A stretch of DNA of 64,000 bases from Agrococcus casei LMG 22410 (GTDB taxonomy: Bacteria > Actinomycetota > Actinomycetes > Actinomycetales > Microbacteriaceae), in NCBI RefSeq assembly GCF_900163565.1, contig NZ_FUHU01000044.1, forward strand, positions 124,001 to 188,000, in the 5' to 3' direction. A model generated the notes under the pieces. That model did not search any database. It worked only from the letters and a program-made list of their open reading frames with translations, and had not been told where the DNA came from. Made by a program: the position numbers and the translations under genes. Positions 50,720-64,000 of the stretch are shown one piece after another. The stretch's first letter is position 1, and every line of letters starts with the position of its first letter.

Positions 50720-51589
50720 ATGCAACCGGCAATACAGGTCAAGAGCCTCACCAAGAAGTACGGCGATCACACGGTCGTCGACGATGTCAGCTTCGAGATC
50801 GAGCAGGGCGAGACGTTCGCGCTGCTCGGCCCGAACGGCGCAGGCAAGTCGACGACCGTCGAGACACTCGAGGGCTATCGCAAGCCCACCTCAGGCGACG
50901 TGCGCGTGCTCGGCACCGACCCGCTGCGCGGCGGCCTCTCGTGGCGCAGCCGCATCGGCGTCGTGGCGCAGTCGCTCGGCTCCGAGACGATGCTCACGAC
51001 GCGCGAGCTGCTCTCGCATGCCGCGCGGGTGTTTCCGACTCCTCGAAGCGTCGACGAGGTGCTCGAGATCGTCGGCCTCAGCGAGCACGCCGGCAAGCTG
51101 ACGCGCAAGCTCTCGGGCGGCCAGAAGCGCCGCGTCGACCTGGCGCTCGGCATCATGGGCAGGCCAGAGGTGCTCTTCCTCGACGAGCCGACCACGGGCC
51201 TCGACCCCGAAGTGCGCCGTCAGATCTGGGATCTCATCGACGACCTCTCAGACCAGGGCACGACCGTGCTCCTCACGACGCACTACCTCGACGAAGCCGA
51301 GCAGCTCGCACGTCGCGCGGGCGTCATCATCGGCGGAAAACTGGTCACGGTCGATGCTGTCGACCGCATAGGAGGGGCGGATGCGCGAGTGCCGGTCGTG
51401 AGGTGGCAGGAAGGCGGCCGCGTGCACGAGGAGCGAACCGAGCATCCGACCTCCCTTGTCGCCCGACTGGCTGAGGAACGGGGCGAACTCGCCCGGCTCG
51501 AGGTCATCAGGCCGACCCTCGAGACCATCTACCTCGGCATGCTGCGCGAGCACGGAAGCCACGACATGCTGCAGGAGGCAACATCATGA
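50720..51589 (+). CDS. ABC exporter ATP-binding protein (daunorubicin-type)
   Basis: A 289-residue ATPase: Walker A GPNGAGKSTTVE, Q-loop IGVVAQS, signature LSGGQKRRVDLALG, Walker B VLFLDEPTTGLD, H-loop LLTTHYLDEAEQL. The C-terminal extension (about 215-289) is as in drug-exporting DrrA-like proteins. First gene of a four-gene operon with its permease (4-base overlap), a kinase and a regulator. Confidence 0.93.
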   Translation: MQPAIQVKSLTKKYGDHTVVDDVSFEIEQGETFALLGPNGAGKSTTVETLEGYRKPTSGDVRVLGTDPLRGGLSWRSRIGVVAQSLGSETMLTTRELLSHAARVFPTPRSVDEVLEIVGLSEHAGKLTRKLSGGQKRRVDLALGIMGRPEVLFLDEPTTGLDPEVRRQIWDLIDDLSDQGTTVLLTTHYLDEAEQLARRAGVIIGGKLVTVDAVDRIGGADARVPVVRWQEGGRVHEERTEHPTSLVARLAEERGELARLEVIRPTLETIYLGMLREHGSHDMLQEATS

Positions 51590-52458
51590 GCACTGCAGCG
51601 AACACCGCGATGCACACCGTCACACCTGTGACCGGCCTGGATCGCACGCTGCCACCGGGCCACACGCTGCGGGTCGGCATCGACCGCATCCGTCTCGAAC
51701 TGCTCGAGTACGTTCGCCGCGTCGACAACATGATCTTCACGTTCGCGTTTCCGATCATGCTGCTGCTGATCTTCGCGAGCGCATTCGGCAGCGCCGACCC
51801 CGTGCAGACACCGGAGGGCGAGATCGATCCGGCAGCCATGATGCTGCCGGCGATGCTGGCGGCCGGCGTGCTGCTCTCGGGCACGCAGAACCTCGGCATC
51901 GGCGTCGCGATCGAGAAGTGGGACGGCACGCTGCGCCGCTTCTCAGCCATGCCGATTCCCGTCGCGAGCTACTTCATCGGCAAGTTCGGCCAGGTGCTCG
52001 TGACCTCGATCGTGCAGACGGCGGCACTGCTGGCCGTCGGCATCGGCGTCTTCGGCTTCGAGCTGCCGCAGTCGGGCGAGCAGTGGGGCGTGTTCGGCTG
52101 GGCCTACGGGCTCGGGCTGCTGTGCTGCTCGATGCTGGGGCTCGCACTCGCGCAGCTTCCGCGATCGGTGAACTCCGCATCCGCCATCGTGATTCCCGTC
52201 GTGCTGCTGCTGCAGTTCATCTCGGGCATCTACCTCACGATCACGATGCTGCCAGAATGGCTGATCCAGATCGCCAACGTGTTTCCGGTCGCGTGGCTGG
52301 CACACGCCATGCGCTTCGCCTTCATGCCCGACGCCGCGAGGTTCGCCGAGCTGAACCAGGAGTGGGATCTCGGCACGGCGCTCCTGATGCTCGCGGCCTG
52401 GACGGTCGTCGGCACCGCGATCGCGCTCTTCACGTTCCGCTGGGTCAAGCGAAGCTGA
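51586..52458 (+). CDS. ABC-2 type permease
   Basis: A 290-residue membrane protein with six hydrophobic segments: one near residue 45-65 (MIFTFAFPIMLLLIFAS), then five in the C-terminal half. MLPAMLAAGVLLSGTQNLGIGVAIEKWDGTLRRF is the ABC-2/DrrB-type motif region. It forms an exporter with the preceding ATPase; the substrate is unknown. Its ATG overlaps the ATPase stop. Confidence 0.9.
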   Translation: MSTAANTAMHTVTPVTGLDRTLPPGHTLRVGIDRIRLELLEYVRRVDNMIFTFAFPIMLLLIFASAFGSADPVQTPEGEIDPAAMMLPAMLAAGVLLSGTQNLGIGVAIEKWDGTLRRFSAMPIPVASYFIGKFGQVLVTSIVQTAALLAVGIGVFGFELPQSGEQWGVFGWAYGLGLLCCSMLGLALAQLPRSVNSASAIVIPVVLLLQFISGIYLTITMLPEWLIQIANVFPVAWLAHAMRFAFMPDAARFAELNQEWDLGTALLMLAAWTVVGTAIALFTFRWVKRS

Positions 52459-52477
52459 CCCCTGCCAGACTGTGAGC

Positions 52478-53659
52478 ATGCACACCGAGTCGACCGCGGA
52501 GGAGACCGACGGCACCCGCATCTGGCACTGGGCAGTGCTGGTGCTGGGGCCTGCGACCTCCGCCGTCGCCGTCTGGATGCTGTGGCTCGAAGCCGGCGAA
52601 GGCCCGCTCACGACGCTGCAGTGGGCGCAGGGCATCTTCACGATCGTCGCCCCGCTCGCCGTGATCGCCCTGTGGCTGTGGGTGCGCCCTCGCGTGGCCG
52701 AGCGGCCTGCGGCGCACCTTCCGCTCATGATCCTCATGACCGTCACGCTCGGCGTGAGCACCTGGACCCAGCCGGGTCTCGCGGGCGCCATGAGCTTCAT
52801 CATGCCGCTCGCCTGGCTCGCCACCCCGACCAATCGCGCGGCGATCATCTGGAGCGGCGTGCTGGTCGCCGCAGCCGGCACGGGCATGATGGCCAGCGGC
52901 TTCACCTCGCCGGGCTACGCGATCTTCACCGTGATCTTCAGCGTCGGGCTGAGCGCTGCGATCGGGCTCTCGATCTCGAAGCTGCACGAGCAGGTGCTCG
53001 AGCGCGAGCAGCTGGTTCGCGAACTGCAGCAGAAGCAGGACGAGATCGTCGCACTCGGCTCTGAGCGTGCCGCCGAAGCCGAGCGGGCTGCCGTGCTGCG
53101 CGACGTGCACGATGCCGTGACCCAGAATCTCACCGCGATCGTCATGCAGTCGCGGCTGCCGAACCACGACCCTGCGCTCATCGAAGAGCTCGCGAGCGAA
53201 GCCCTCGAAGAGACGCGAGCGCTGCTGCTGAAGGCGACCCCCTCGCAGCTCGACAGCGGGCTTCCGGCCGCGCTGCAGCGTCTGGCCGACCGGTTCGAGC
53301 GCGAGGCATCCGTGACCGTGACGACCAGAATCGAGCCCCTCCGACTCGGCCTCGAATCCGAGATCGTGCTGCTGCGCGTCTGCCAGGAGCTGCTCGCCAA
53401 CGTGCGAAAGCACGCACAGGCCAGCAGCGTCGAAGTCACCCTCGAAGCCGCGGGCGGCTCCGTCTCGCTCGCCGTCGTCGACGACGGGCGCGGCATCGAC
53501 GAGGCAAGAACCGCGAGCACAGCGGATGCGCGGGGCCTGCGCGGCATCCACGAGCGCGTGCAGGCGGTCGGCGGCACGGTCGAGGTGGCCTCCTCCGGCG
53601 GAACAGCCGTCACCGTTCGACTGCCGGCCGAGACCAGCGCGCAGGAGGCGCGGGCATGA
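52478..53659 (+). CDS. sensor histidine kinase, HisKA_3/DesK type
   Basis: A 393-residue kinase. Four to six membrane helices make up residues about 15-160, then a coiled-coil and HisKA_3 site AVLRDVHDAVTQNLTAIV (His near 211), N-box ELLANVRKHAQ, and G-box DARGLRGIHERVQAVGG. Start ATG 52478 rather than GTG 52472 because CAGACT lies 6 nt upstream. Coupled to the regulator by ATGA. Confidence 0.92.
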   Translation: MHTESTAEETDGTRIWHWAVLVLGPATSAVAVWMLWLEAGEGPLTTLQWAQGIFTIVAPLAVIALWLWVRPRVAERPAAHLPLMILMTVTLGVSTWTQPGLAGAMSFIMPLAWLATPTNRAAIIWSGVLVAAAGTGMMASGFTSPGYAIFTVIFSVGLSAAIGLSISKLHEQVLEREQLVRELQQKQDEIVALGSERAAEAERAAVLRDVHDAVTQNLTAIVMQSRLPNHDPALIEELASEALEETRALLLKATPSQLDSGLPAALQRLADRFEREASVTVTTRIEPLRLGLESEIVLLRVCQELLANVRKHAQASSVEVTLEAAGGSVSLAVVDDGRGIDEARTASTADARGLRGIHERVQAVGGTVEVASSGGTAVTVRLPAETSAQEARA

Positions 53660-54279
53660 CCGATCCCATTCGCGTCATCGTCGCCGACGACCACCCCGTG
53701 ATCCTCGGCGGGCTCGTGAGCATGCTCGAATCCGACCCCGGCATCTCCGTCGTCGCCACGGCGGCCGACGGCGCGGCGCTCGTCGCGGCGACCCGGCAGC
53801 ACGCGTGCGATGTGGTCGTCACAGACCTGCGGATGCCCGGCACGGGCGGCGCAGACGCGACCCGGCAGATTCGGCGGGCCGCGCATCCGCCCCGTGTGCT
53901 GATCCTGACCACCTACGACTCCCCCGCCGACGTGATGCAGGCGGTCGAGGCAGGTGCAAGCGGCTACCTGCTGAAGGCGGCTCAGCCCCGCGAGATCCTG
54001 GCGGCGGTGCGCGCAGTCGCCCGCGGCGAGCGCGCCATGTCACCTGCCGTCGCGCAGCGGCTGTCGCAGCTGCAGGATTCCGAGCAGCTGACCGCCCGCG
54101 AGGTGCAGGTGCTGCGCCTCATGCGCGCCGGCGGCACCAACGCGAGCATCGGAGCAGAGCTCGGCATCGGCGCGGCCACCGTCAAGACGCACGTGCAGCA
54201 CATCTTCGACAAGCTCGGGGTGCGCGACCGCACGAGCGCCGTCGCGACCGGCATCGATCTCGGCCTGCTGAGCGCCTGA
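53656..54279 (+). CDS. NarL/LuxR-family response regulator
   Basis: A 207-residue regulator. Receiver VIVADDHPVIL, phospho-acceptor Asp57 in VVTDLRMPGTGG, Lys in GYLLKAA; LuxR HTH with LTAREVQVLRLMRAGGTN and AATVKTHVQHIFDKLGV. Partner of the preceding kinase; it probably controls the ABC exporter in the same operon. Confidence 0.94.
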   Translation: MTDPIRVIVADDHPVILGGLVSMLESDPGISVVATAADGAALVAATRQHACDVVVTDLRMPGTGGADATRQIRRAAHPPRVLILTTYDSPADVMQAVEAGASGYLLKAAQPREILAAVRAVARGERAMSPAVAQRLSQLQDSEQLTAREVQVLRLMRAGGTNASIGAELGIGAATVKTHVQHIFDKLGVRDRTSAVATGIDLGLLSA

Positions 54280-54283
54280 GGAT

Positions 54284-55336
54284 TCAGATCTCGAGGCCGA
54301 CGAGCACCGGCTCGTTCACCAGCTGCACGCCGAACTCACTGAGCACTCTGATCTGCACGTAGCGCGCCAGCTCGGCGACCTCCTCGCCCGTTGCACCGCC
54401 GGTGTTGGTGATGGCCAGGGTGTGCTTCGACGAGATCGCGGCACGGCCGGTGCCGAGGCTGAAGCCCTTCTCGATGCCCGCACGCTCGATCAGCCACGCG
54501 GCCGAGAGCTTGAAGGCCTCGGTTTCGCCGCCATCGGCTCGAGTCTTGGGGGCAGCCGCAAATCGCGGCGCGTCTTCTGGCAGCGAGTGCGTGAACGCCT
54601 TCGAGACGATCGGGTTCGTGAAGAACGAGCCGGCCGAGACCGAGTCGGGGTCGTCAGAGAGCACCATGCCCTTGGATGCGCGAAGCTCGAGCACCGATCG
54701 GCGCACGTCCGCAAGGGGTCGCCGGTCGCCGGTCTCTGCCCCGAGGCTCGTCGCCAGCTGCCCGTATCGAATCGGCGCGGACTGCCCGTCGGCCTTGCGC
54801 AGCCGCAGCTCGACCGAGAGCACGAGACCCGTGAGGCTGCCGCTCTTGATGGCGCTGTTGCGGTACTCGAGCTCGAGGTCAGCCGCCTCGAGCCGCTGCA
54901 CCTCCAGCGTCTCTGCGCTCAGGAACTCGACGGCAACCAGGGTCTCGGCGACTTCCTGCCCGTATGCGCCGATGTTCTGAATGGGTGCCGCCCCGACCGA
55001 GCCGGGTATCCCGGACATCGCCTCGATGCCTGACCAGCCGCGCTCGACCGACATGGCGACCAGGTCGTCCCACGTCTCGCCTGCCTGCGCGCGCACCGTG
55101 ACGGCGTCGTCGGTCTCATCGAGCACCTCGAAGCCGCGCGTGCGCATGAGCAGCGCTGTTCCGGCGAACGGGTCGTCGCTCGCGACCGTGTTGCTGCCGC
55201 CGCCCAGCACGATGAACTCAGCACCGGTTCTGACCAGCCGCTCGTAGGCCTCTGCGGCCTGCTGCGCACTCTCGGCCTCGACGAGGTCGGCGATCTCGCC
55301 TCCGACCCGCATCGTCGTCAGGTCAGACAGCCTCAT
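54284..55336 (-). CDS. murB: UDP-N-acetylenolpyruvoylglucosamine reductase
   Basis: A 350-residue FAD/NADPH enzyme of peptidoglycan precursor synthesis in the cytosol. Motifs: LTTMRVGGEIADLVEA, the FAD site VLGGGSNTVASD, GIEAMSGIPGSVGAAPIQNIGAYGQ-type region, the catalytic Ser in SAGSFFTNP, and the C-terminal Glu near NEPVLVG. It is the long (type I, E. coli-like) form. ATG 55336 overlaps the previous stop (ATGA); the 25-codon extension is rejected. Confidence 0.95.
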   Translation of the reverse strand: MRLSDLTTMRVGGEIADLVEAESAQQAAEAYERLVRTGAEFIVLGGGSNTVASDDPFAGTALLMRTRGFEVLDETDDAVTVRAQAGETWDDLVAMSVERGWSGIEAMSGIPGSVGAAPIQNIGAYGQEVAETLVAVEFLSAETLEVQRLEAADLELEYRNSAIKSGSLTGLVLSVELRLRKADGQSAPIRYGQLATSLGAETGDRRPLADVRRSVLELRASKGMVLSDDPDSVSAGSFFTNPIVSKAFTHSLPEDAPRFAAAPKTRADGGETEAFKLSAAWLIERAGIEKGFSLGTGRAAISSKHTLAITNTGGATGEEVAELARYVQIRVLSEFGVQLVNEPVLVGLEI

Positions 55337-55743
55337 GCGGCGCGAACGATCGCCTGGGACTTTCCGAGCACGGTCTGCTCGCCCAGCGTGACCTTGAGAT
55401 CGATGCGCCACAGGCCTTCGCCGAGGTCTTTGGCCACAGTCGCGGTGATGTGCACGTCGGCCCCGGCCTCGGTGTCGACGGGCACCGGTCGCGTGAAGCG
55501 CACCTGGTAGTCGACGATGCGCCCGGGGTCGCCGAAGAAGTCGACCACCGGCTGGATCGCCGTGCCCATCGTGAGCATGCCGTGTGCCAGCACGCCCGGA
55601 AGCCCCACCTGCTGCGCGACGTCGTCGCGGTAGTGGATCGCGTTGAAGTCACCGGATGCGCCGGCGTACCGCACGAGCGAGTCGCGCGAGAAGTGCGCGT
55701 CGTATTTGGCGATGACCTGGCCTTCTGAGAGTGCGAAGCTCAC
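55333..55743 (-). CDS. MaoC-family dehydratase, HadB-like
   Basis: A 136-residue hot-dog protein with the hydratase-2 motif GDFNAIHYRDDVAQ (Asp32, His37) and GLPGVLAHGMLTMG. Together with the upstream HadA-like protein it should form a (3R)-hydroxyacyl dehydratase. The two overlap by 4 bases. Gene order HadA-HadB-murB is a known actinobacterial arrangement. Confidence 0.9.
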   Translation of the reverse strand: MSFALSEGQVIAKYDAHFSRDSLVRYAGASGDFNAIHYRDDVAQQVGLPGVLAHGMLTMGTAIQPVVDFFGDPGRIVDYQVRFTRPVPVDTEAGADVHITATVAKDLGEGLWRIDLKVTLGEQTVLGKSQAIVRAA

Positions 55744-56186
55744 GAGTCTCCTCCGACCACGAGTGTTGCGAACGAGGCGGCGACCTTCTCGCCGGCCGCG
55801 TCGAAGATGTCTGCCTCAGTCGTGACCATCGCGTTGCCGCCGAGCGCGCGAACGCCTGCGACCTTGAACTGCACCGTGAGCTCGTCGCCTGCGACGATCG
55901 GACGCTCGAAGGCGAAGCGCTGGTCTCCGTGCACGACGCGCGTCAGCTCGATGCCTGCGCTCTCGTCAGCCAGCAGCTGGTCGAGGCCGCGCTGCTGCAC
56001 GACGATCGTGAAGGTCGGGGGTGCGACGAGATCGTCGTAGCCCGCCTCGTTCGCTGCCGCCACGTCGAAGTGCACGGGGTTCGTCGCCTGCACAGCATGC
56101 GCGAACTCCCGAATCTTCTCGCGACCGACCAAGTACGGCTCAGTCGGCGGATACACCTTGCCTGCAAGTTCTGGATTCACTGCCAC
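55740..56186 (-). CDS. MaoC N-terminal (FAS1-like) dehydratase, HadA-like
   Basis: A 148-residue hot-dog protein: PTEPYLVGREKIREFAHAV, DDLVAPPTFTIVV, VHGDQRFAFERPIVAGDEL. HadA proteins bind the acyl chain while HadB catalyses. In mycobacteria they work in mycolate synthesis; in a mycolate-free relative the substrate is open. Start GTG 56186, with TAGACT 6 nt upstream. Confidence 0.9.
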   Translation of the reverse strand: MAVNPELAGKVYPPTEPYLVGREKIREFAHAVQATNPVHFDVAAANEAGYDDLVAPPTFTIVVQQRGLDQLLADESAGIELTRVVHGDQRFAFERPIVAGDELTVQFKVAGVRALGGNAMVTTEADIFDAAGEKVAASFATLVVGGDS

Positions 56187-56192
56187 GCCTCC

Positions 56193-56198
56193 AGTCTA
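56193..56198 (-). promoter_or_regulatory. putative -10 box of hadA-hadB-murB (leaderless)
   Basis: Minus-strand TAGACT lies 6 nt before GTG 56186. Confidence 0.4.
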
Positions 56199-56222
56199 TG
56201 CGTCGGCTCTCTTGGCGTCGGC

Positions 56223-56462
56223 TCAGCCGTTGGGCGGCCGCTTGATGTCACCGCGGATGAGTCGCTTGCGCAGCCAGAAGATCATCGGGATCATCAGCAG
56301 CGCGAACGCGAGCAGCACATAGGCGATCAGCTCGTCAGCAGTGAAGTAGAAGTACACGGCTAAGCCGAACACCACGAGCGTCGAGGTCGACATCGCGCCC
56401 GCGATGAGGTTGGCGGCGCGAACGCGCTGCTCTGGGGTCTGGGGCCCTGCCTCGTTGGTCAT
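56223..56462 (-). CDS. small two-helix membrane protein
   Basis: A 79-residue hypothetical: hydrophilic N-terminus, helix 1 (ISAGAMSTSTLVVFGL-like, about 20-40), helix 2 (AYVLLAFALLMIPMIFW, about 46-63), and the basic tail RKRLIRGDIKRPP. ATG 56462 follows a GAGGAATC-like site. It is 10 bases after the truncated dehydrogenase, same strand. Function is unknown. Confidence 0.75.
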   Translation of the reverse strand: MTNEAGPQTPEQRVRAANLIAGAMSTSTLVVFGLAVYFYFTADELIAYVLLAFALLMIPMIFWLRKRLIRGDIKRPPNG

Positions 56463-56472
56463 GATTCCTCGC

Positions 56473-57153
56473 TCAGTAGCCGCGCTCGGGGCTGACGACG
56501 CCGTCGAGGCTCTCGCCAGCCGCACGCCTGCGGATGTTCTCGACGAACCGGTCGCTCAGCAGTTCGACGACCTGCACCTCGGTGTCAGCGGTATGCGGTG
56601 TGATGATCGCGCGCGGCTCGCTCCAGAGCGCGTGCCCTGCAGGCAGCGGCTCGGGGTAGGTCACATCGAGCCCCGCACCGAAGATCTCGTCGTTCTGCAG
56701 GGCGGCGACCAGCGCATCCGTGTGGATGATGGGCCCGCGTGCGATGTTGACCACCACTGCGCTGTTCGGCATGGCCTTGAACGCCTCGGCATTCACGATG
56801 CCGCGCGTCTCGTCGTTCAGCGCCGACGCCAGGAACAGCACGTCGGTCTCGGGCAGCAGCCCAGCGAACTCGCTCGTCGGCACGGTGCGGTCGGCACCGG
56901 GCATGGGCGTCGACGAGTGACGCACAGCGGTCACGGTGCAGCCGAACGGCTCGATGAGGCGCGCATACTCCTCTGCGATGCCGCCGCCGCCCAGGATCGT
57001 GACCCGCTTGCCGTAGAGCATCTCGCCGGTCTGCACGGAATCCCATTCGGATGCGCGAGCGCGGCGGTGCAGGTCGTTCATCAGCGCCAGCGTGAGCGCC
57101 AGGCCGTGCTGTGCGACAGGCTTCGAGTAGGCGCCCTTGGCGCTCGTGAACAT
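56473..57153 (-). pseudogene. 2-hydroxyacid dehydrogenase, 5' end cut off by mobile element
   Basis: A 226-residue remnant of an NAD-dependent D-2-hydroxyacid dehydrogenase (about 300 residues in relatives). It keeps TSAKGAYSKPVAQHGLALTL, the NAD motif ILGGGGIAEEYARL, NIARGPIIHTDALVAAL (catalytic Arg), ALQNDEIFGAGLDVTYPEPL, and IITPHTAD (catalytic His). About 80 N-terminal residues are missing. The homology stops near 57153, where the integrase-bearing element starts. An ATG at 57153 with AGGAG directly upstream might allow a fragment to be made. Confidence 0.88.
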
Positions 57154-57167
57154 CTCTCCTCTAAGAC

Positions 57168-57173
57168 TAGGGT
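57168..57173 (+). promoter_or_regulatory. putative -10 box of the integrase gene (leaderless)
   Basis: TAGGGT lies 6 nt before ATG 57180, about 15 bases inside the element. Confidence 0.4.
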
Positions 57174-57179
57174 AGAGAC

Positions 57180-58580
57180 ATGACGACGAGGGCAGCCGCA
57201 TACCTACGCATCTCCCAGGACCACGATGGTGAACGCTTCGGCGTAGAGACCCAGCGGCGACGGATCGCGGCTGAGATCGAGAAGCGCGGATGGACGCTGG
57301 TGCGAGAGTTCGAGGACAACTCGGTCTCGGCGTCGAAGGCGCGAGGCAAGGGCACCAAGTGGCACGACATGCTCGAAGCGGCGGGCACTGGTCAGTTCGA
57401 CGTCATCGTTGCGGTCGACCTCGATCGTCTACTCCGCCAGACCAAGGACCTTGTCACCCTGATCGAAGCGGGGGCCAAGGTGGTGACCCTCGATGGTGAG
57501 ATCGACCTGAGCACTCCCGATGGCGAGCTGCGGGCGACGATGCTGACCGCGTTCGCGCGATTTGAAGTGCGACACAAGGCGGAGCGCCGCAGGCGGGCGA
57601 ACGCCCGTCGTCGCGATGAAGGCACACCGACGATGGTCGCGCTCAAGATCCTCGGGTACACGCGCGACGGGCTGGACGTCATCGAAGAGGAGGCAGAGTC
57701 CGTCAAGAAGGTCTTCGATGACTTTCTGGCCGGCGTCTCGCTGAACCAGCTGGCCAGGGACCTCAACGAACAGGGCTTCACGACATCGAAAGGTCGACCA
57801 TTCAACGGCCACTCGGTCAGGACCATGCTGCGCAATCCGCGTTATATGGGGAAGATCCTCCACCACTCGACCGGCGAGATGTACGCGGGGCGGTTCCCTG
57901 AGATAGTCGACGAGGACCTGTGGAACACCGTCCAGACGAAGCTCGACGACCCCGCCCGCCGGAAGTCGATCGGCAACGAGCCGACACAGCTGCTCAGCAG
58001 CATCGCCTACTGCGGAGTGTGCAACAAACGATCCATCAAGGTCGGCCGAGCGGATTGGGTCTTCTATCGATGCAACGACGGACACGTGAGCCGGAGCCAG
58101 CGCCAGGTCGATGCGATGGTCAACGCGGCGGTCATCGAACGACTGTCGAGCAAGGATGCTCGGGAGCTGATCCTGCGCCCCGCCGCCGACGAGACAGATA
58201 GGGACGCGCTCCGTTCTGAGCGGATGGTGGCGCAGACCAAGATTGACGGGCTTGCGGCTCTCTACGCGGACGGCGTGCTCGACGGGCCCGCGGTGCGACG
58301 TCAGAGCGCCATGCTGCGTCAGAAGATCAACGAGATCGACGGTCGCCTCAGCACACCCGGCGCTCCGCCGATTGAGGAGCTGATCGAGTCCGCCGATGTC
58401 GAGGCGACGTGGCGCGAAATGGACCTCACGCGACGTCGGCTCGTCGTCGACTCACTCATGAAAGTGACCATCCTTCCGAAGGAGTCCCGGGGCCGGAAGT
58501 TCGATCCCGAGTCCGTTCGGATCGAACGGTTGAGCCCGAGCGACGCTCGTGAACTCAGGGGCGACTCGGAGGACGAATGA
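57180..58580 (+). CDS. large serine recombinase / integrase
   Basis: A 466-residue recombinase. N-terminal resolvase domain with catalytic Ser12 in YLRISQD and the Arg cluster in VDLDRLLRQTKDL; then the recombinase domain (GYTRDGLDV to RNPRYMGK), zinc ribbon CGVC with a second half YRCNDGH, a coiled-coil region and an acidic tail. It should integrate the element at a short att core and, with a directionality factor, excise it. The gene lies at the left edge beside the split dehydrogenase, which marks the attachment site. Confidence 0.95.
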   Translation: MTTRAAAYLRISQDHDGERFGVETQRRRIAAEIEKRGWTLVREFEDNSVSASKARGKGTKWHDMLEAAGTGQFDVIVAVDLDRLLRQTKDLVTLIEAGAKVVTLDGEIDLSTPDGELRATMLTAFARFEVRHKAERRRRANARRRDEGTPTMVALKILGYTRDGLDVIEEEAESVKKVFDDFLAGVSLNQLARDLNEQGFTTSKGRPFNGHSVRTMLRNPRYMGKILHHSTGEMYAGRFPEIVDEDLWNTVQTKLDDPARRKSIGNEPTQLLSSIAYCGVCNKRSIKVGRADWVFYRCNDGHVSRSQRQVDAMVNAAVIERLSSKDARELILRPAADETDRDALRSERMVAQTKIDGLAALYADGVLDGPAVRRQSAMLRQKINEIDGRLSTPGAPPIEELIESADVEATWREMDLTRRRLVVDSLMKVTILPKESRGRKFDPESVRIERLSPSDARELRGDSEDE

Positions 58581-58870
58581 GTCGACTGCGAGTTGACCGC
58601 GAGTTGACAGCCCGGTAGGATCGAAGCCACGAAGTCGATCCGGAAAGATGGTTCGACGGGCAGATGGCACGTCGTCGTCACCGTGGGGGTAGCGACGGCA
58701 GGGGCCATGAGGCAGGCAACGGAGTGAACCTCGCGCCGCGGGGGTGAGACACCTGCCGGACGACTCCCGAAAGTGATGGCCGAGAGGCCGGGCCAGAGCG
58801 ATAGGCCCGTAGCGTTCGCAAGGATCGCAAGTCGCAGGGCCCGATGGCCGCCGGATGACGGGACGCCGGA
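58581..58870. other. 290-base gap in the mobile element, no gene seen
   Basis: GC-rich and without a supported reading frame, RNA or strong repeat. It may hold the promoter for the HTH-primase genes; no clear -35/-10 was recognised. Confidence 0.4.
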
Positions 58871-58893
58871 ACTCCCAACGAAGTGTTGGGAGT
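58871..58893 (+). promoter_or_regulatory. hairpin covering the ribosome-binding site of the HTH gene
   Basis: ACTCCCAAC, loop GAAGT, GTTGGGAGT: a perfect 9-bp stem. The right arm contains GGGAG, the only ribosome-binding site for ATG 58900. Folding would block translation; it could also be a protein operator. Confidence 0.6.
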
Positions 58894-58899
58894 CTCAAC

Positions 58900-59268
58900 A
58901 TGCCCGTTTCATCCAATCTCAGTCCTGTCGCAGCGACTTCGCCGCTGTCCACGAAGGAAGCCGCCGCGTACATCGGATGCTCGCCGAGGACGCTTTCCAA
59001 CTGGCGCAATCGCGGCACCGGGCCGACGTTCGTGTGGTTCGGCGCAAAGCACTCGCGCGTCGCATATCTGAAGGCGGACCTCGACGCGTTCTTGGCCGAG
59101 CATCGCTCCACTGGCGCGTCGGATGACATCGCGGCCGCGATCGCCGCGGGCAAGGCAGCCGGCAAGAAGCTCGCGGAGACCCCGCTGACGGAGGAGCAGA
59201 AGGCTCTGCTCGGAACGCTGATCAGTCCCCTGAAGAGCCTGGCTGTCTCGGGAGGTGCGTCGGCATGA
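58900..59268 (+). CDS. HTH (MerR/excisionase-like) DNA-binding protein
   Basis: A 122-residue protein. A HTH_17-type domain spans about 14-70: LSTKEAAAYIGCSPRTLSNW, RNRGTGPTFVWFGAKHSRVAYLKADLDAFL. The C-terminus is helical and Ala/Lys-rich. In integrative elements this family acts as excisionase or as replication regulator. ATG 58900 is chosen for the GGGAG 8 bases upstream. It overlaps the primase start (ATGA). Confidence 0.85.
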   Translation: MPVSSNLSPVAATSPLSTKEAAAYIGCSPRTLSNWRNRGTGPTFVWFGAKHSRVAYLKADLDAFLAEHRSTGASDDIAAAIAAGKAAGKKLAETPLTEEQKALLGTLISPLKSLAVSGGASA

Positions 59269-61076
59269 ACGCAGAAGAAAGCCGCCCCGGCGGCAACACC
59301 GAGACGGCCATCCAGAATCGGGCGGATTCTTCCCACCATTCTACCGATAGCGAGGCCCCTGTGCCTCCTTCGGCGGAAGACGAGATCGCCCGTCTGGAGC
59401 GCGAGCTGGCCGAGGCGCAGCGGGGAGGTCCGGTGCCGACCCCGCAGGTCGAGGTGGGCACTCAGAGCGTAGACACGACGGTGCGGCCCTCGCCCGAAAG
59501 CCTGATCGAGATGGCCTACGAAGAACACCGTGCAGCCCTGTCCGGTCGGCAGATCGAGTTGGGCAAGTATCGGGACGGCCTCCTGGCTCGGATCGAGGAG
59601 CGGTTCGCGGAGGAGAACACGTGGCGTAAGGCTCAGAAGCTGCGCGTCCACCCGACGCCTAGCCATCTCGATGAACTGACGATCGTGAAGATCCTGTTGG
59701 ATCTCCACGACATCGCAGCGGTCAACCTGACGAACAGCAGGGACGGCGACGACCTGTCGCTGCTCGCGATGTACCAGTCGTCGGGCGACGCCGAGGGCAC
59801 GTACGCGACTAGCGAGAGCGTGTTCGTCCGGCTCGTCAGCGAGCTGGCACCGAGCATGCGTCAGCGCGATGTCGAGTCGGTCATCAAGCGCTTGAATGCT
59901 CATGCGAAGGTGGTGCGGCGGTGCGACGACCCGGCGCTGTCGCCGGTGAACAACGGCATCTTCAACCACACCACGCAGGAGCTGGAGCCGTTCACTCCGG
60001 AGCGCGTCTTCCTGGCGAAGTCACCGGTCGACTACATCGCCGACGCGCCGAACCCCGTCATCACGATGCCCGACGGCCAGACCTGGGATGTCGAGTCGTG
60101 GATCGCCGATCTCTCCGACGACGAGGGCGTTCCCGAGCTGCTGTGGGAGATCATCTCGGCGGTACTGCGTCCCAATGAGCGGTGGAACCGCTCACCGTGG
60201 CTGTATGGCACGAGCGGTCGCAACGGCAAGGGAACGCTGATGCAGCTGCTGAGGAACGTCGTCGGTGACGATGGTGCTGCGACCCTGTCGATCAAGGCGT
60301 TCGGTGACCGGTTCTCGAAGGAGTCCCTCCTGACCTCGACGGCGGTGCTCTCCGATGAGAACGACGTCGGCGACTTCGTGAAGTCCGCTGCGGATTTCAA
60401 GTCGGTCGTCACGGGGGATCCGATCCAGATCGACCGAAAGAACCGCCGGCCGGTCAGCGTCCGTGTGCAGGGCATCGTCGTGGCCTGTTTCAACGGCTTC
60501 CCTCGTGTGAAGGACAAGTCCCAGTCGTTCAACCGCAGGCCGCTGATGGTGCCGTTCCCCAAGAACTTCACGGGCGGCGAGCGGCGGTACATCAAGAGCG
60601 ACTACCTCGCTCGTAGGGACGTCCTCCGTTATGTGCTGCGGCGGGCGCTTCAGATGCAGCACACCACTCTCAGCGAGCCCGAGGCATGCACGGCGGTGAT
60701 GGACGAGTTCCGGATCATGAACGACCCGGTTGCCGACTTCTGGACCGAGTTCGAGGACCAGTTCGTCTGGGATCTGCTTCCCACCGTGTTCCTGTACGAC
60801 TTGTTCATGACGTGGTTCGCGAAGACCCGTCCCTCCGGTATTCCGTTGAGTCGCAACGAGTTCACGCATCAGTCGAAGATCCTCCTGGCAGATTCGTCGA
60901 CCTGGAAGTACACCGACTGCAAGCGCCCCGGGACGTCGATGATCAACCCCGAACCGCTGATCGCCGAGTACGACCTCACGAACTGGATGAACCCTACTTA
61001 TCGGGGTCCGAACATCCACGGCAAGTGCGTTCCCTCACCGCTGAAGCCCAATTACAGGGGGTTTGAGCGCCAGTAA
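59265..61076 (+). CDS. phage/plasmid primase-helicase, P4/D5 type
   Basis: A 603-residue replication protein. The N-terminal 75 residues are disordered and acidic; the middle resembles D5_N/DUF5906 regions. The SF3 helicase core has Walker A GTSGRNGKGT (about 315-324), LSDENDVGDF as Walker B, FKSVVTGDPIQIDRKNR and VACFNGFPRV (motif C, Asn). The end binds DNA by analogy. It should allow replication of the excised element. An archaeo-eukaryotic primase domain is not obvious. Confidence 0.87.
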   Translation: MNAEESRPGGNTETAIQNRADSSHHSTDSEAPVPPSAEDEIARLERELAEAQRGGPVPTPQVEVGTQSVDTTVRPSPESLIEMAYEEHRAALSGRQIELGKYRDGLLARIEERFAEENTWRKAQKLRVHPTPSHLDELTIVKILLDLHDIAAVNLTNSRDGDDLSLLAMYQSSGDAEGTYATSESVFVRLVSELAPSMRQRDVESVIKRLNAHAKVVRRCDDPALSPVNNGIFNHTTQELEPFTPERVFLAKSPVDYIADAPNPVITMPDGQTWDVESWIADLSDDEGVPELLWEIISAVLRPNERWNRSPWLYGTSGRNGKGTLMQLLRNVVGDDGAATLSIKAFGDRFSKESLLTSTAVLSDENDVGDFVKSAADFKSVVTGDPIQIDRKNRRPVSVRVQGIVVACFNGFPRVKDKSQSFNRRPLMVPFPKNFTGGERRYIKSDYLARRDVLRYVLRRALQMQHTTLSEPEACTAVMDEFRIMNDPVADFWTEFEDQFVWDLLPTVFLYDLFMTWFAKTRPSGIPLSRNEFTHQSKILLADSSTWKYTDCKRPGTSMINPEPLIAEYDLTNWMNPTYRGPNIHGKCVPSPLKPNYRGFERQ

Positions 61077-61129
61077 CCGATACACACCGACACCCACACG
61101 CCGGGTGACAACTAGAGAGGAAAGAAGAG

Positions 61130-61441
61130 ATGAACTACCAGACCGAAGAGATGAGCGGGCAGCAGGATGAGACCGCCGAAGTGACGGCGGAGGCGTCGTC
61201 GAAGCCGAAGAAGACCCCGAGTCGCCGGAAGCCGAAGACTCCCCGGGAGCGTCTCGCAGACGTCATGCGCCAGCAGGAGACGTTGAAGCAGCAGGTCGCT
61301 GCTCAGCGCTCACGTGAGTGCGTCGAGATCGTCGAGGCACTGTACGAGCTGCACGGCATCGAGGCGATCACCGGCGACCTGGGCGAAGGCCAGCGGCTGT
61401 CGAGTCTGCGTGACGCACTGGGTCTCCCCGCTACGGAGTAG
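61130..61441 (+). CDS. small charged protein of the mobile element
   Basis: A 103-residue protein. The N-terminal half is Lys/Arg/Glu-rich and disordered (SKPKKTPSRRKPKTPRERL), then a helix (VMRQQETLKQQVAAQR) and a small domain ending DALGLPATE. A GAGGAAAGAAGAG site precedes the ATG. No family was recognised; a DNA-binding accessory of replication or mobilization is possible. Confidence 0.65.
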   Translation: MNYQTEEMSGQQDETAEVTAEASSKPKKTPSRRKPKTPRERLADVMRQQETLKQQVAAQRSRECVEIVEALYELHGIEAITGDLGEGQRLSSLRDALGLPATE

Positions 61442-61464
61442 TGCAGGGCGGAGACCCTCTGGCC

Positions 61465-61500
61465 GAAGCCCCGAGCACCGATTCTGGTGCCCGGGGCTTC
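61465..61500 (+). terminator. strong hairpin, likely terminator after the replication genes
   Basis: GAAGCCCCGAGCACC and GGTGCCCGGGGCTTC pair over 15 bases with one mismatch around GATTCT, 24 bases after the small gene's stop. No U-tract follows. Confidence 0.65.
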
Positions 61501-61604
61501 GTCATGCCCGCGGGGTTCGAAGGGGCAGAGGGGACGCGCGGAGCGCGGACACGGAGCCCCTCGCAAGCAAAGGTAGTCGTCGCGCCAGCGACGGCTGCCG
61601 TGCC

Positions 61605-61739
61605 GACTGTAAACGTTCGAGCGAAGCGAGAGCGTTTACAGTCGGATTGCTTGCCAGTAGCCAGGGCCCTGGGGCAAAATGGAAGTACGAGTCGTTCGCC
61701 AGAATGCGTCGTTGACGAATGGAGCCCCAGGGCCCTGGC
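61605..61739. other. candidate oriT: nested inverted repeats upstream of mobC
   Basis: Two inverted repeats lie in a gene-free region directly before mobC and the relaxase. GACTGTAAACG (61605) pairs with CGTTTACAGTC (61633) over 11 bases; GCCAGGGCCCTGGGGC (61660) pairs with GCCCCAGGGCCCTGGC (61724) over 16 bases. Place and structure fit a transfer origin. The nick site cannot be named from sequence alone. Confidence 0.55.
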
Positions 61740-61754
61740 CAGTGGGAGGGTGCA

Positions 61755-62369
61755 GTGAACGAGGAACGAGTGAACATAGAGCACCCGACTGCCGGCGAGG
61801 AGGACGTGTCCGACGAGCACCGTCCTCGCGGTCGAGACGCCTCCGGCGTTGAGACTCGCGATGGTGGCGACGGACCCGCCGCCACGACGGGGAGTGTCCA
61901 GCCTCGGTCGGCACGACCGGTCAAGAACACCGTTGTTTCCGCTCGACTCGACGAATCTGGGTCCGAGGATTTCGCATTCGTGAAGTCGGCTCTGGTCGGC
62001 AGGAAGTCGTCATCATCCGATGCAGTTCGCAAGATGGTGGAGATCATGGCTGCGACACTGCGCGACGAGAAGTACACCGATGCCTCACGAGCACAGGAGT
62101 CGCGCACTGTCGACCTCGACGAGAGTCAGATCGCCTCGTTGAAGGAGTCGCTGGACCGGAACGCAACCGGTTACTCGGACGCGACCTTCCAGTTCCAGAA
62201 GATCGGCAACAACGTGAACCAGCTCGCGCGCTCAGCGAACTCAGGCGACCGCGTTCCTGCTGCGGCGCTGAAGCAGGTCTCGCGTCGTCTGGCGCGTATC
62301 GAGGAGTTGCTGGAGTTCCTGGCCGACCGTGATGGCGCTCGGTCCCGGATGCTCCGAAGGTGGTTGTGA
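61755..62369 (+). CDS. mobC: MobC-like relaxosome accessory protein
   Basis: A 204-residue protein. The first 55 residues are disordered and acidic; then a ribbon-helix-helix-like segment (KNTVVSARLDESGSEDFAFV), a linker, and the MobC signature FQKIGNNVNQLARSANSGD at about 147-166, ending in a helical domain. It helps the relaxase bind and open oriT. GTG 61755 has GGGAGGG upstream. Its TGA overlaps the relaxase ATG (TGATG). Confidence 0.85.
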   Translation: MNEERVNIEHPTAGEEDVSDEHRPRGRDASGVETRDGGDGPAATTGSVQPRSARPVKNTVVSARLDESGSEDFAFVKSALVGRKSSSSDAVRKMVEIMAATLRDEKYTDASRAQESRTVDLDESQIASLKESLDRNATGYSDATFQFQKIGNNVNQLARSANSGDRVPAAALKQVSRRLARIEELLEFLADRDGARSRMLRRWL

Positions 62370-64000
62370 TGCCCTCGATCACGATCGGCAAAACACCCAT
62401 CGCGTGGCGGCTGCTGCGGTACACGGTGAAGCCGAAGCCTGGCTCGACGAAGACGGAGCGCGTGCTGCATGCAGCGGGCCTGCACTGCCGTCCTGAGTCC
62501 TCGGCGAAAGAGTTCGCGGCAGTGCGGCGTCGTCATGGGAAGCAGGGTGCGATGCGCAAGTCGCCGGCCCGTTTCGAGCTTCCCGAACACGACGAGGAGG
62601 CCACGCACGTGCGCGACACTCGCCCCGGTGGCCGCAGGTACTGGCGTGAGGCTCGGGGCGATGAGACTGCGACCCACGTCAAGCACGAGGGCGGCTACGT
62701 GCGCCAGAACGAGGCGGTGCACTTCATCATCGGCTTCGGCCCCGATGAGGTGAACCCGCAGGATCCCGAACAGGTCGCTCACGCATTCGAGTACACGGTG
62801 GCGCTCTTCCGGGAGACCATGCCCGGGCTCCAGGTCCACCTGGTTGGGCAGGCCGATGGCAAGGGCATGACTCCCGATCCCACGACCGGTGAGGTCAGCG
62901 GGAAGTTCCACGTGCACGCGGTAGCGAACGCCGTTGTCTATGAGGACATGGATGTCGAAGGCCGCGTCTGGCAGGCGGGGTCGAAGATGTCCGGTGCACT
63001 CACGGACATCGACAGCGTCCGCGAACGGCATGACGTCTTCATGCGTGAGAACCCGGAATGGGGCTTCACGCAGAAGGCGAAGTCTGTCGCCGAGCAGAAG
63101 AAGGAGCGCCGCTCGGTGATGGACCGTCGCATGCGTTCGCGCGGTGAACGGTCGAACCACGACATCATCCGCGACGCAATGTGGTCCGCGCTGCACGACC
63201 CTCGATCTGTCGATGACGCCTTCCGGGGCACGATGAGCGACCCCCGCACGGTCGACCGCAGCGCGTTCGAGGCCGTCATGGCCGAGTACGGGGCCGATCA
63301 TGGTCTGTCGGTCGAGGACCCGGGCTGGCGCCGGGGTAAGCCGCCGAAGCGGCGCAAGATCAGTTACCGGCTCGACGGCATGGCGACGAACGTCCGTGGC
63401 GAGACGCTTGGCGAACAGTACGAAGCCGACTTCATCTACCGGCAGCTGTGCGCGGTCGCCGCTGGCCGGGAGATCGAGCCACGTGTCGAGAGCGCCGTCG
63501 TGGGGCCAGCACGCCAGGTCACGAAGCCGACCGACGACGAGCTGACCGAGGCCAGGGCCACGATCGAAGAACTCGTCCGCGAGGAAGAGCTCGACGCCTG
63601 GGTCGAGGACTGGGCTCGTGCAGAGAATACTTCCGTCGAAGAGCTTCTGGACGAGCGGGGGATGTCGATCGACGACGAAGGCGACCGTGAGAAGCTCCGA
63701 CGTTCCATGCACACATGGAGGGCAGCCCGGCAGAAGGATCACACCGCGTCGATGCCCCAGACCACGGCGACCAGCAAGCCCGAGGGCAAGAGTCCCAGCG
63801 CAGCGGGCTCGCGGCAGCCTGCCCGGCGGGCCGCAGTGGTTCTGGACATCAGCGCCGACGTCGACCGCCAGATGCAGGAGTCGGGAACAGCAGCCGAGGC
63901 TCTCCTTCAGCGGTGGGGGGTCGAGGAAGCGCCCCATCGCTCCGAGACGGCTCCTGCTGCCCGGGACGAGCACCAGGACGATGAGACCGAGGAGACGGTG
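62369..64000 (+). CDS. relaxase / mobilization protein (partial at 3' end)
   Basis: The frame is open for 544 codons to the window end, so the C-terminus is missing. The relaxase fold lies in the first 200 residues: VHFIIGFGPDEVNP, then FHVHAVANAVVYED with the metal-binding HxH (about residue 180). A catalytic Tyr is probably one of the N-terminal Tyr residues (YTVKPKPG, YWREARG), not proven. The middle is basic and helical, and the end is an acidic low-complexity tail. It should nick oriT and lead the strand into a recipient, using a helper's conjugation machinery. Confidence 0.82.
   Translation, partial: MPSITIGKTPIAWRLLRYTVKPKPGSTKTERVLHAAGLHCRPESSAKEFAAVRRRHGKQGAMRKSPARFELPEHDEEATHVRDTRPGGRRYWREARGDETATHVKHEGGYVRQNEAVHFIIGFGPDEVNPQDPEQVAHAFEYTVALFRETMPGLQVHLVGQADGKGMTPDPTTGEVSGKFHVHAVANAVVYEDMDVEGRVWQAGSKMSGALTDIDSVRERHDVFMRENPEWGFTQKAKSVAEQKKERRSVMDRRMRSRGERSNHDIIRDAMWSALHDPRSVDDAFRGTMSDPRTVDRSAFEAVMAEYGADHGLSVEDPGWRRGKPPKRRKISYRLDGMATNVRGETLGEQYEADFIYRQLCAVAAGREIEPRVESAVVGPARQVTKPTDDELTEARATIEELVREEELDAWVEDWARAENTSVEELLDERGMSIDDEGDREKLRRSMHTWRAARQKDHTASMPQTTATSKPEGKSPSAAGSRQPARRAAVVLDISADVDRQMQESGTAAEALLQRWGVEEAPHRSETAPAARDEHQDDETEETV

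Follow-up and report, generated by a model that had tools for sequence, protein, structure and literature searches.

Probable remnant of an integrative mobilizable element within a 2-hydroxyacid dehydrogenase gene of Agrococcus casei

In Agrococcus casei LMG 22410, a gene for a 2-hydroxyacid dehydrogenase breaks off next to the gene of a large serine integrase, which raises the question of whether the mobile element at this locus holds its host gene in two halves that excision would rejoin or has become fixed there. An earlier note on this DNA proposed that the gene is split reversibly by an integrative mobilizable element (IME). We analysed the surrounding stretch of 64,000 nucleotides, here called the window (G000:C25:124001-188000; contig C25 continues to 210118), in a genome assembly of 2.79 Mb and 48 contigs with a completeness rating of 100%. 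Our analysis makes it probable that the locus holds the left part of a decayed IME, inserted at codon 80/81 of a dispensable dehydrogenase gene, and that its right end, the 5' part of the gene and about 2 kb of chromosome have been lost.

On the left, the chromosome is conserved in gene order up to the break (Table 1). The dehydrogenase open reading frame (ORF) as listed spans 56473-57201(-), extending over element DNA, and carries the NAD-binding domain of 2-hydroxyacid dehydrogenases (Pfam). A homologue occurs in 18 of 79 other genomes (E limit 1e-40), including two of the 23 from the same genus, G003 and G015. These two intact proteins have 305 residues, and their alignment to the remnant (79% and 80% identity, respectively) starts at residue 81, which bears out the earlier placement of the split near codon 80. 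About 30 bases separate the end of DNA homology to the intact gene from the start codon of the integrase. Taken together, the alignments place an end of the element inside the gene, at codon 80/81, and the break there is not a chance effect.

Within those bases (window 57151-57180), the element supplies an ATG, preceded by an AGGAG-like stretch and in frame with the dehydrogenase remnant; the start codon of the divergently oriented integrase gene is 26 bases away. As read from the sequence, a C-terminal dehydrogenase protein of about 226 residues could therefore be made.

Table 1. Features of the locus, in window coordinates unless a locus is named
Feature	Position	Strand	Evidence
Left chromosomal flank, eight ORFs	50720..56525		same-order homologues in G015 and G003, 39-83% identity (tblastn)
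3' part of 2-hydroxyacid dehydrogenase gene, codons 81-305 of intact homologues	56473..57150	-	2-Hacid_dh_C 9.8e-46; G015/G003 match from residue 81
Left junction (attL)	57140..57180		DNA alignments with L063 and L064: homology to intact gene ends at ~57150; integrase start codon 57180
Large serine integrase, 466 aa	57180..58580	+	Pfam Resolvase 8e-25, Recombinase 3.2e-21; PHROG integrase 4.4e-96
HTH_17 protein, excisionase/regulator-like, 137 aa	58855..59268	+	HTH_17 3.6e-10; PHROG 66 excisionase and transcriptional regulator 9.2e-11
P4/D5-type primase-helicase, 603 aa	59265..61076	+	TIGR01613 2.9e-53; DUF5906 1.1e-15; Pox_D5, D5_N (Pfam)
103-aa ORF (orf103)	61130..61441	+	89% conserved in Brevibacterium S111 element (tblastn)
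MobC mobilization protein, 216 aa	61719..62369	+	PF05713 8.1e-10, above cut-off; 93% identity to S111
Relaxase, 761 aa	62360..64000, on to L006:10645	+	sub-cut-off Pfam Relaxase match, motif and homology

The genes that follow the junction are those of a mobilizable element. Pfam, PHROG and TIGR01613 matches confirm the large serine integrase, the P4/D5 helicase and MobC named earlier, and the relaxase stands on motif and homology: its Pfam score is 21.8 bits for the part in the window and 20.5 for the whole protein, both below the cut-off of 24.6, and its FHVH..xN (HxHxxxN) stretch and N-terminal Tyr21, which we take to be relaxase motifs, are invariant across the homologues in this element, Brevibacterium and genome G371. 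The relaxase gene crosses the end of the window, stops 645 bases further on and is followed by genes for a lipoprotein-like product, an XRE-type regulator and ArdA. The interval of 56473-64000 that had been assigned to the element thus starts in the host gene and ends within the element. A PHROGs scan of seven element proteins returned integrase, excisionase/DNA-binding, primase and anti-restriction families; the sole match to a packaging family was a weak one (5.1e-5) between the HTH protein and a terminase small subunit.

The element, then, has its own integrase and its own relaxase with the accessory protein MobC, and the identification of an IME-type element inside the dehydrogenase gene is well supported by gene content and break point. 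Its left junction is the one end that was found, and no oriT was located in it. A Pfam scan of 24 ORFs, drawn from the element and from the sequence on its right-hand side, yielded neither VirB4 nor a coupling protein, the right part of the element being missing. Searched against 72,556 plasmid records, the relaxase gave nothing at 1e-5. The helicase matched 20 plasmid records, and its two best matches, at 39-41% identity, belong to one plasmid from Streptomyces and one from Gordonia; the inspected stretches of these two contain no annotated mobilization genes, and the Gordonia plasmid is typed mobilizable as a whole.

Relatives of the mobilization block show that it is found in varied company. 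A search of the genome collection with the relaxase, made with short exact patterns that detect close relatives only, gave one confirmed match, in Brevibacterium sp. S111 (NZ_RHFH01000004.1, L082). There the order helicase, orf103, MobC, relaxase, lipoprotein, XRE and ArdA is the same as here, with tblastn identities of 89% for orf103, 93% for MobC, 93% for the relaxase, 93% over 275 aa for the lipoprotein, 80% for XRE, 63% for ArdA and 62% for the helicase. The S111 element differs in having a tyrosine integrase instead of a serine integrase, other flanks, and further on additional ORFs, one of them for the type I restriction protein HsdR. An element in G371 (L077) likewise has, in the same order, a serine recombinase, a helicase (40%), an ORF, MobC, a relaxase (50% over 420 aa), a lipoprotein and XRE, but its recombinase is only 27% identical to the integrase here. 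With a serine integrase in Agrococcus, a tyrosine integrase in S111 and a distant recombinase in G371, the block is thus combined with different integrases. In S111, a stretch that follows the relaxase gene is present in about three copies (L082:12287-12692), against a single copy here (L006:10650-10854).

The integrase has relatives of its own (E<=1e-70) in 10 of the 397 other family genomes drawn, and none of these ten regions contains a dehydrogenase match at 1e-3. Four of them, in four genera (L054-L057, from G357, G138, G371 and G104), have a luciferase-like monooxygenase gene split after codon 83, with both halves kept at the two ends of elements of about 6.3, 7.2, 8.6 and 9.1 kb; the other six show neither half. 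When the flanks are joined, all four give open frames of 345-350 aa. The integrase adjoins the N-terminal half in L056 and L057 and the C-terminal half in L054 and L055, so both orientations occur; this would be possible if the central dinucleotide is a palindrome, for instance the AT in the shared ATG. These elements resemble the one in Agrococcus in having an integrase (43-44% identical) that adjoins the junction and a target gene split near codon 83 (here 80/81), and L056 also in its relaxase domain and a replication protein. They differ in their target gene and in keeping both halves of it, and the L056 replication protein, with Rep_OBD and helicase domains, is unlike the P4/D5 type here. 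They show what an undamaged gene-splitting IME looks like. Inside the L055 element, a 473-aa ORF (L055:10784-12205) appears by eye to be mercuric reductase-like, suggesting that this small element may carry cargo.

In the Agrococcus casei strain, by contrast with L054-L057, one half of the target gene is missing. The 5' part of the dehydrogenase gene had been expected at the far end of the element. A tblastn search with the N-terminal 94 residues of the G015 protein recovered, from the remaining part of the contig, the remnant already known, and no other match had an E below 0.086; over the whole assembly (E<=10) the single match was to 15 residues of that remnant. The 5' part is thus absent from the assembly, and the two halves do not stand at two ends of the element. 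In G003, the DNA beyond the 5' end of the intact gene runs through a gene whose G015 counterpart is polyketide-cyclase-like, two ORFs, tRNA-Met, tRNA-Thr and a hydrolase gene, presumably for a sugar-hydrolase. A 3958-base query from this stretch matched the start of contig C6 in its hydrolase part (81%) and its tRNA part (80%), with tRNA-Met and tRNA-Thr present in both G003 and C6; over its first 2046 bases, where the dehydrogenase 5' part lies, no match was better than E 0.0175.

C6 opens with the last part of an IS3 transposase, followed by a recombinase stub and then tRNA-Met, and its IS3 part is complementary to that of C25: a complete IS3 transposase of 310 aa, encoded on an Iamia plasmid, is covered over residues 1-232 by the end of C25 and over residues 233-310 by the start of C6. 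The simplest reading is that C25 and C6 are neighbours, separated by an insertion nested in one IS3 copy. The sequence at the end of C25 occurs once in the assembly, and because it has no second copy the gap between the two contigs cannot be closed; among plasmids, this IS matched nothing by DNA search and did find matches by protein search. The right end of the element and about 2 kb of chromosome look deleted, across a joint that we infer and that includes one assembly gap. IS copies elsewhere could mislead the joining of C25 to C6, and the genes that G003 has on the right side of the break may have been absent from the Agrococcus casei strain from the outset.

The recombinase stub, a C-terminus at L107:303-785, adjoins tRNA-Met. 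It matches the C-terminal part of a longer ORF in L091 on contig C29 (32%, E 1.7e-16), which by eye we take for a serine recombinase, so the stub would be the C-terminal piece of one. The L091 locus has its own tRNA-like match to the query.

Between the broken gene and the old right flank lies a mosaic: the element, an IS, a MobF relaxase gene in truncated form, a block of siderophore genes and a second recombinase, the last as a stub. The IS is an IS3-family copy after ArdA (L006:13786-15151), its ends set by similarity to plasmid copies and by inverted repeats, and no short direct repeat is visible in the flanks inspected, a result that depends on where those ends are set. On its far side is the MobF gene, cut off by the IS and separated by it from the element, and beyond come AraC-type regulators and then the siderophore block. 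The lack of a target duplication at an IS whose two neighbours are mobile segments unrelated to each other suggests that recombination took place through it. In the likely history, two elements about 2 kb apart, one of them represented by the stub at tRNA-Met, would have fused when the intervening DNA was lost.

The siderophore uptake block lies between IS copies within the mosaic (L007:445-10204 and L006:18019-18999). It encodes a binding protein, two FecCD permeases and an ATPase, and in addition a siderophore-interacting protein that includes a methyltransferase domain, two ABC-type proteins in which membrane and ATPase domains occur, and a luciferase-like monooxygenase. Among plasmids, 498 records match the siderophore-interacting protein, none of them reaching 60% identity, which does not settle its origin.

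Other readings of the locus have to be weighed against that of a decayed IME. An intact IME might hold the gene in a reversible split, its right end and the dehydrogenase 5' part lying in the unassembled gap between C25 and C6, so that excision would restore the gene. There is one such gap, an assembly may miss short contigs, and 4 of the 10 integrase relatives keep both halves of the gene they split. Yet the 5' part would have to sit in a gap inside one IS3 copy, C6 passes from IS3 through the stub to tRNA-Met with no trace of the neighbouring genes, and the assembly is rated complete, all of which makes this reading unlikely. With the 5' part not found and the old right flank behind the IS3 joint, we reject a reversible split for this strain. 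The proposal that excision would restore the enzyme is accordingly unsupported here, and the searches point, subject to one assembly gap, to the outcome that the earlier note itself had named as speaking against it. Probably the element cannot leave and restore the enzyme.

The remaining alternatives concern what kind of element decayed. That it is the remnant of a full integrative conjugative element (ICE), whose transfer genes went with its right part, is improbable, even though that part is missing, a MobF relaxase remnant lies to the right, and in the S111 relative the shared block is followed by a 1190-aa protein with hydrophobic stretches. This protein has no Pfam or NCBIfam family match, and nothing in the Agrococcus casei genome matches its first 691 residues; of the other S111 ORFs scanned, some gave HsdR, a Mu-type transposase, a resolvase or DUF402 and the rest gave no match. 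The IS stands between the MobF gene and the element, and the 24 ORFs here, from which the right part of the element is missing, include neither VirB4 nor a coupling protein, so the full ICE that had been raised earlier as an alternative did not materialize. The P4/D5 primase-helicase and the excisionase-like HTH protein would also suit a P4-like phage satellite with added mobilization genes. To this we give almost no credence: in S111 and G371 the order of MobC and the relaxase relative to the helicase is conserved, and the PHROGs scan of seven proteins produced a single packaging family, in the weak terminase match. Both the ICE and the satellite were rejected as main readings for want of marker genes among the ORFs scanned.

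We thus return to the decayed IME, for which we infer the following movement, transfer and IS-mediated deletion. The large serine integrase would have inserted the element into the dehydrogenase gene at codon 80/81. An element of this kind would excise as a circle, whose copying may be helped by the element's P4/D5 primase-helicase; the relaxase and MobC would nick it, and its transfer machinery would be borrowed from a helper element, with ArdA protecting it from restriction in a new host. After ArdA, an IS3-family copy would then have come to join the element to the truncated MobF gene and the siderophore block, and recombination through IS copies would have removed the right end, the dehydrogenase 5' part and the rest of the roughly 2 kb of chromosome up to the tRNA-Met gene.

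Overall, the element is a decayed member of an ordinary kind, and the locus offers a well-delimited case of the fixation of an inserted IME: one of its ends and one half of the host gene appear to have been lost through an IS joint, so the split is probably no longer reversible. It also shows that almost the same mobilization block can be paired with a serine integrase, as here, or with a tyrosine integrase, as in Brevibacterium. A bolder thought, drawing on the 2-hydroxyacid dehydrogenase here and the luciferase-like monooxygenase in four genera, is that in these actinobacteria serine-integrase IMEs use dispensable oxidoreductase genes as reversible switches, turned off by insertion near codon 80 and on, in frame, by excision, to the gain of host and element; we regard this as a long shot. 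Should excision of the monooxygenase elements prove precise, they would offer a convenient natural setting for testing whether IMEs act as gene switches.

Neither the gene split nor the mix of replication and mobilization genes is unusual, to go by the portions of the literature consulted. The earlier note had held such splits to be seldom seen in mobilizable elements; according to the relevant part of a streptococcal survey (PMC5357655), streptococcal IMEs with serine integrases nearly always insert inside genes, which they disrupt, and 4 of the 10 integrase relatives described above split a gene as well. The gene mix, previously singled out as special, has precedents as well, since another paper describes, in the text drawn on here, various IMEs that carry replication genes, and calls IME target genes dispensable (PMC5704250). 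Streptococcus suis ICEs, in an excerpt of a further report, were found inside a luciferase-like monooxygenase gene (PMC7168690). As far as the sections of the streptococcal survey used here go, its serine-integrase IMEs, in rumA, traG, maff2 and snf2, share with the present element an end-placed serine integrase, a relaxase and a disrupted target; VirB4, the gene used in that survey to tell ICEs from IMEs, was not found in them (PMC5357655) or, among the 24 ORFs scanned, here. Compared with those streptococcal IMEs, the Agrococcus element belongs to another host phylum, occupies another target gene, carries a P4/D5 helicase, MobC and ArdA, and has lost its right end.
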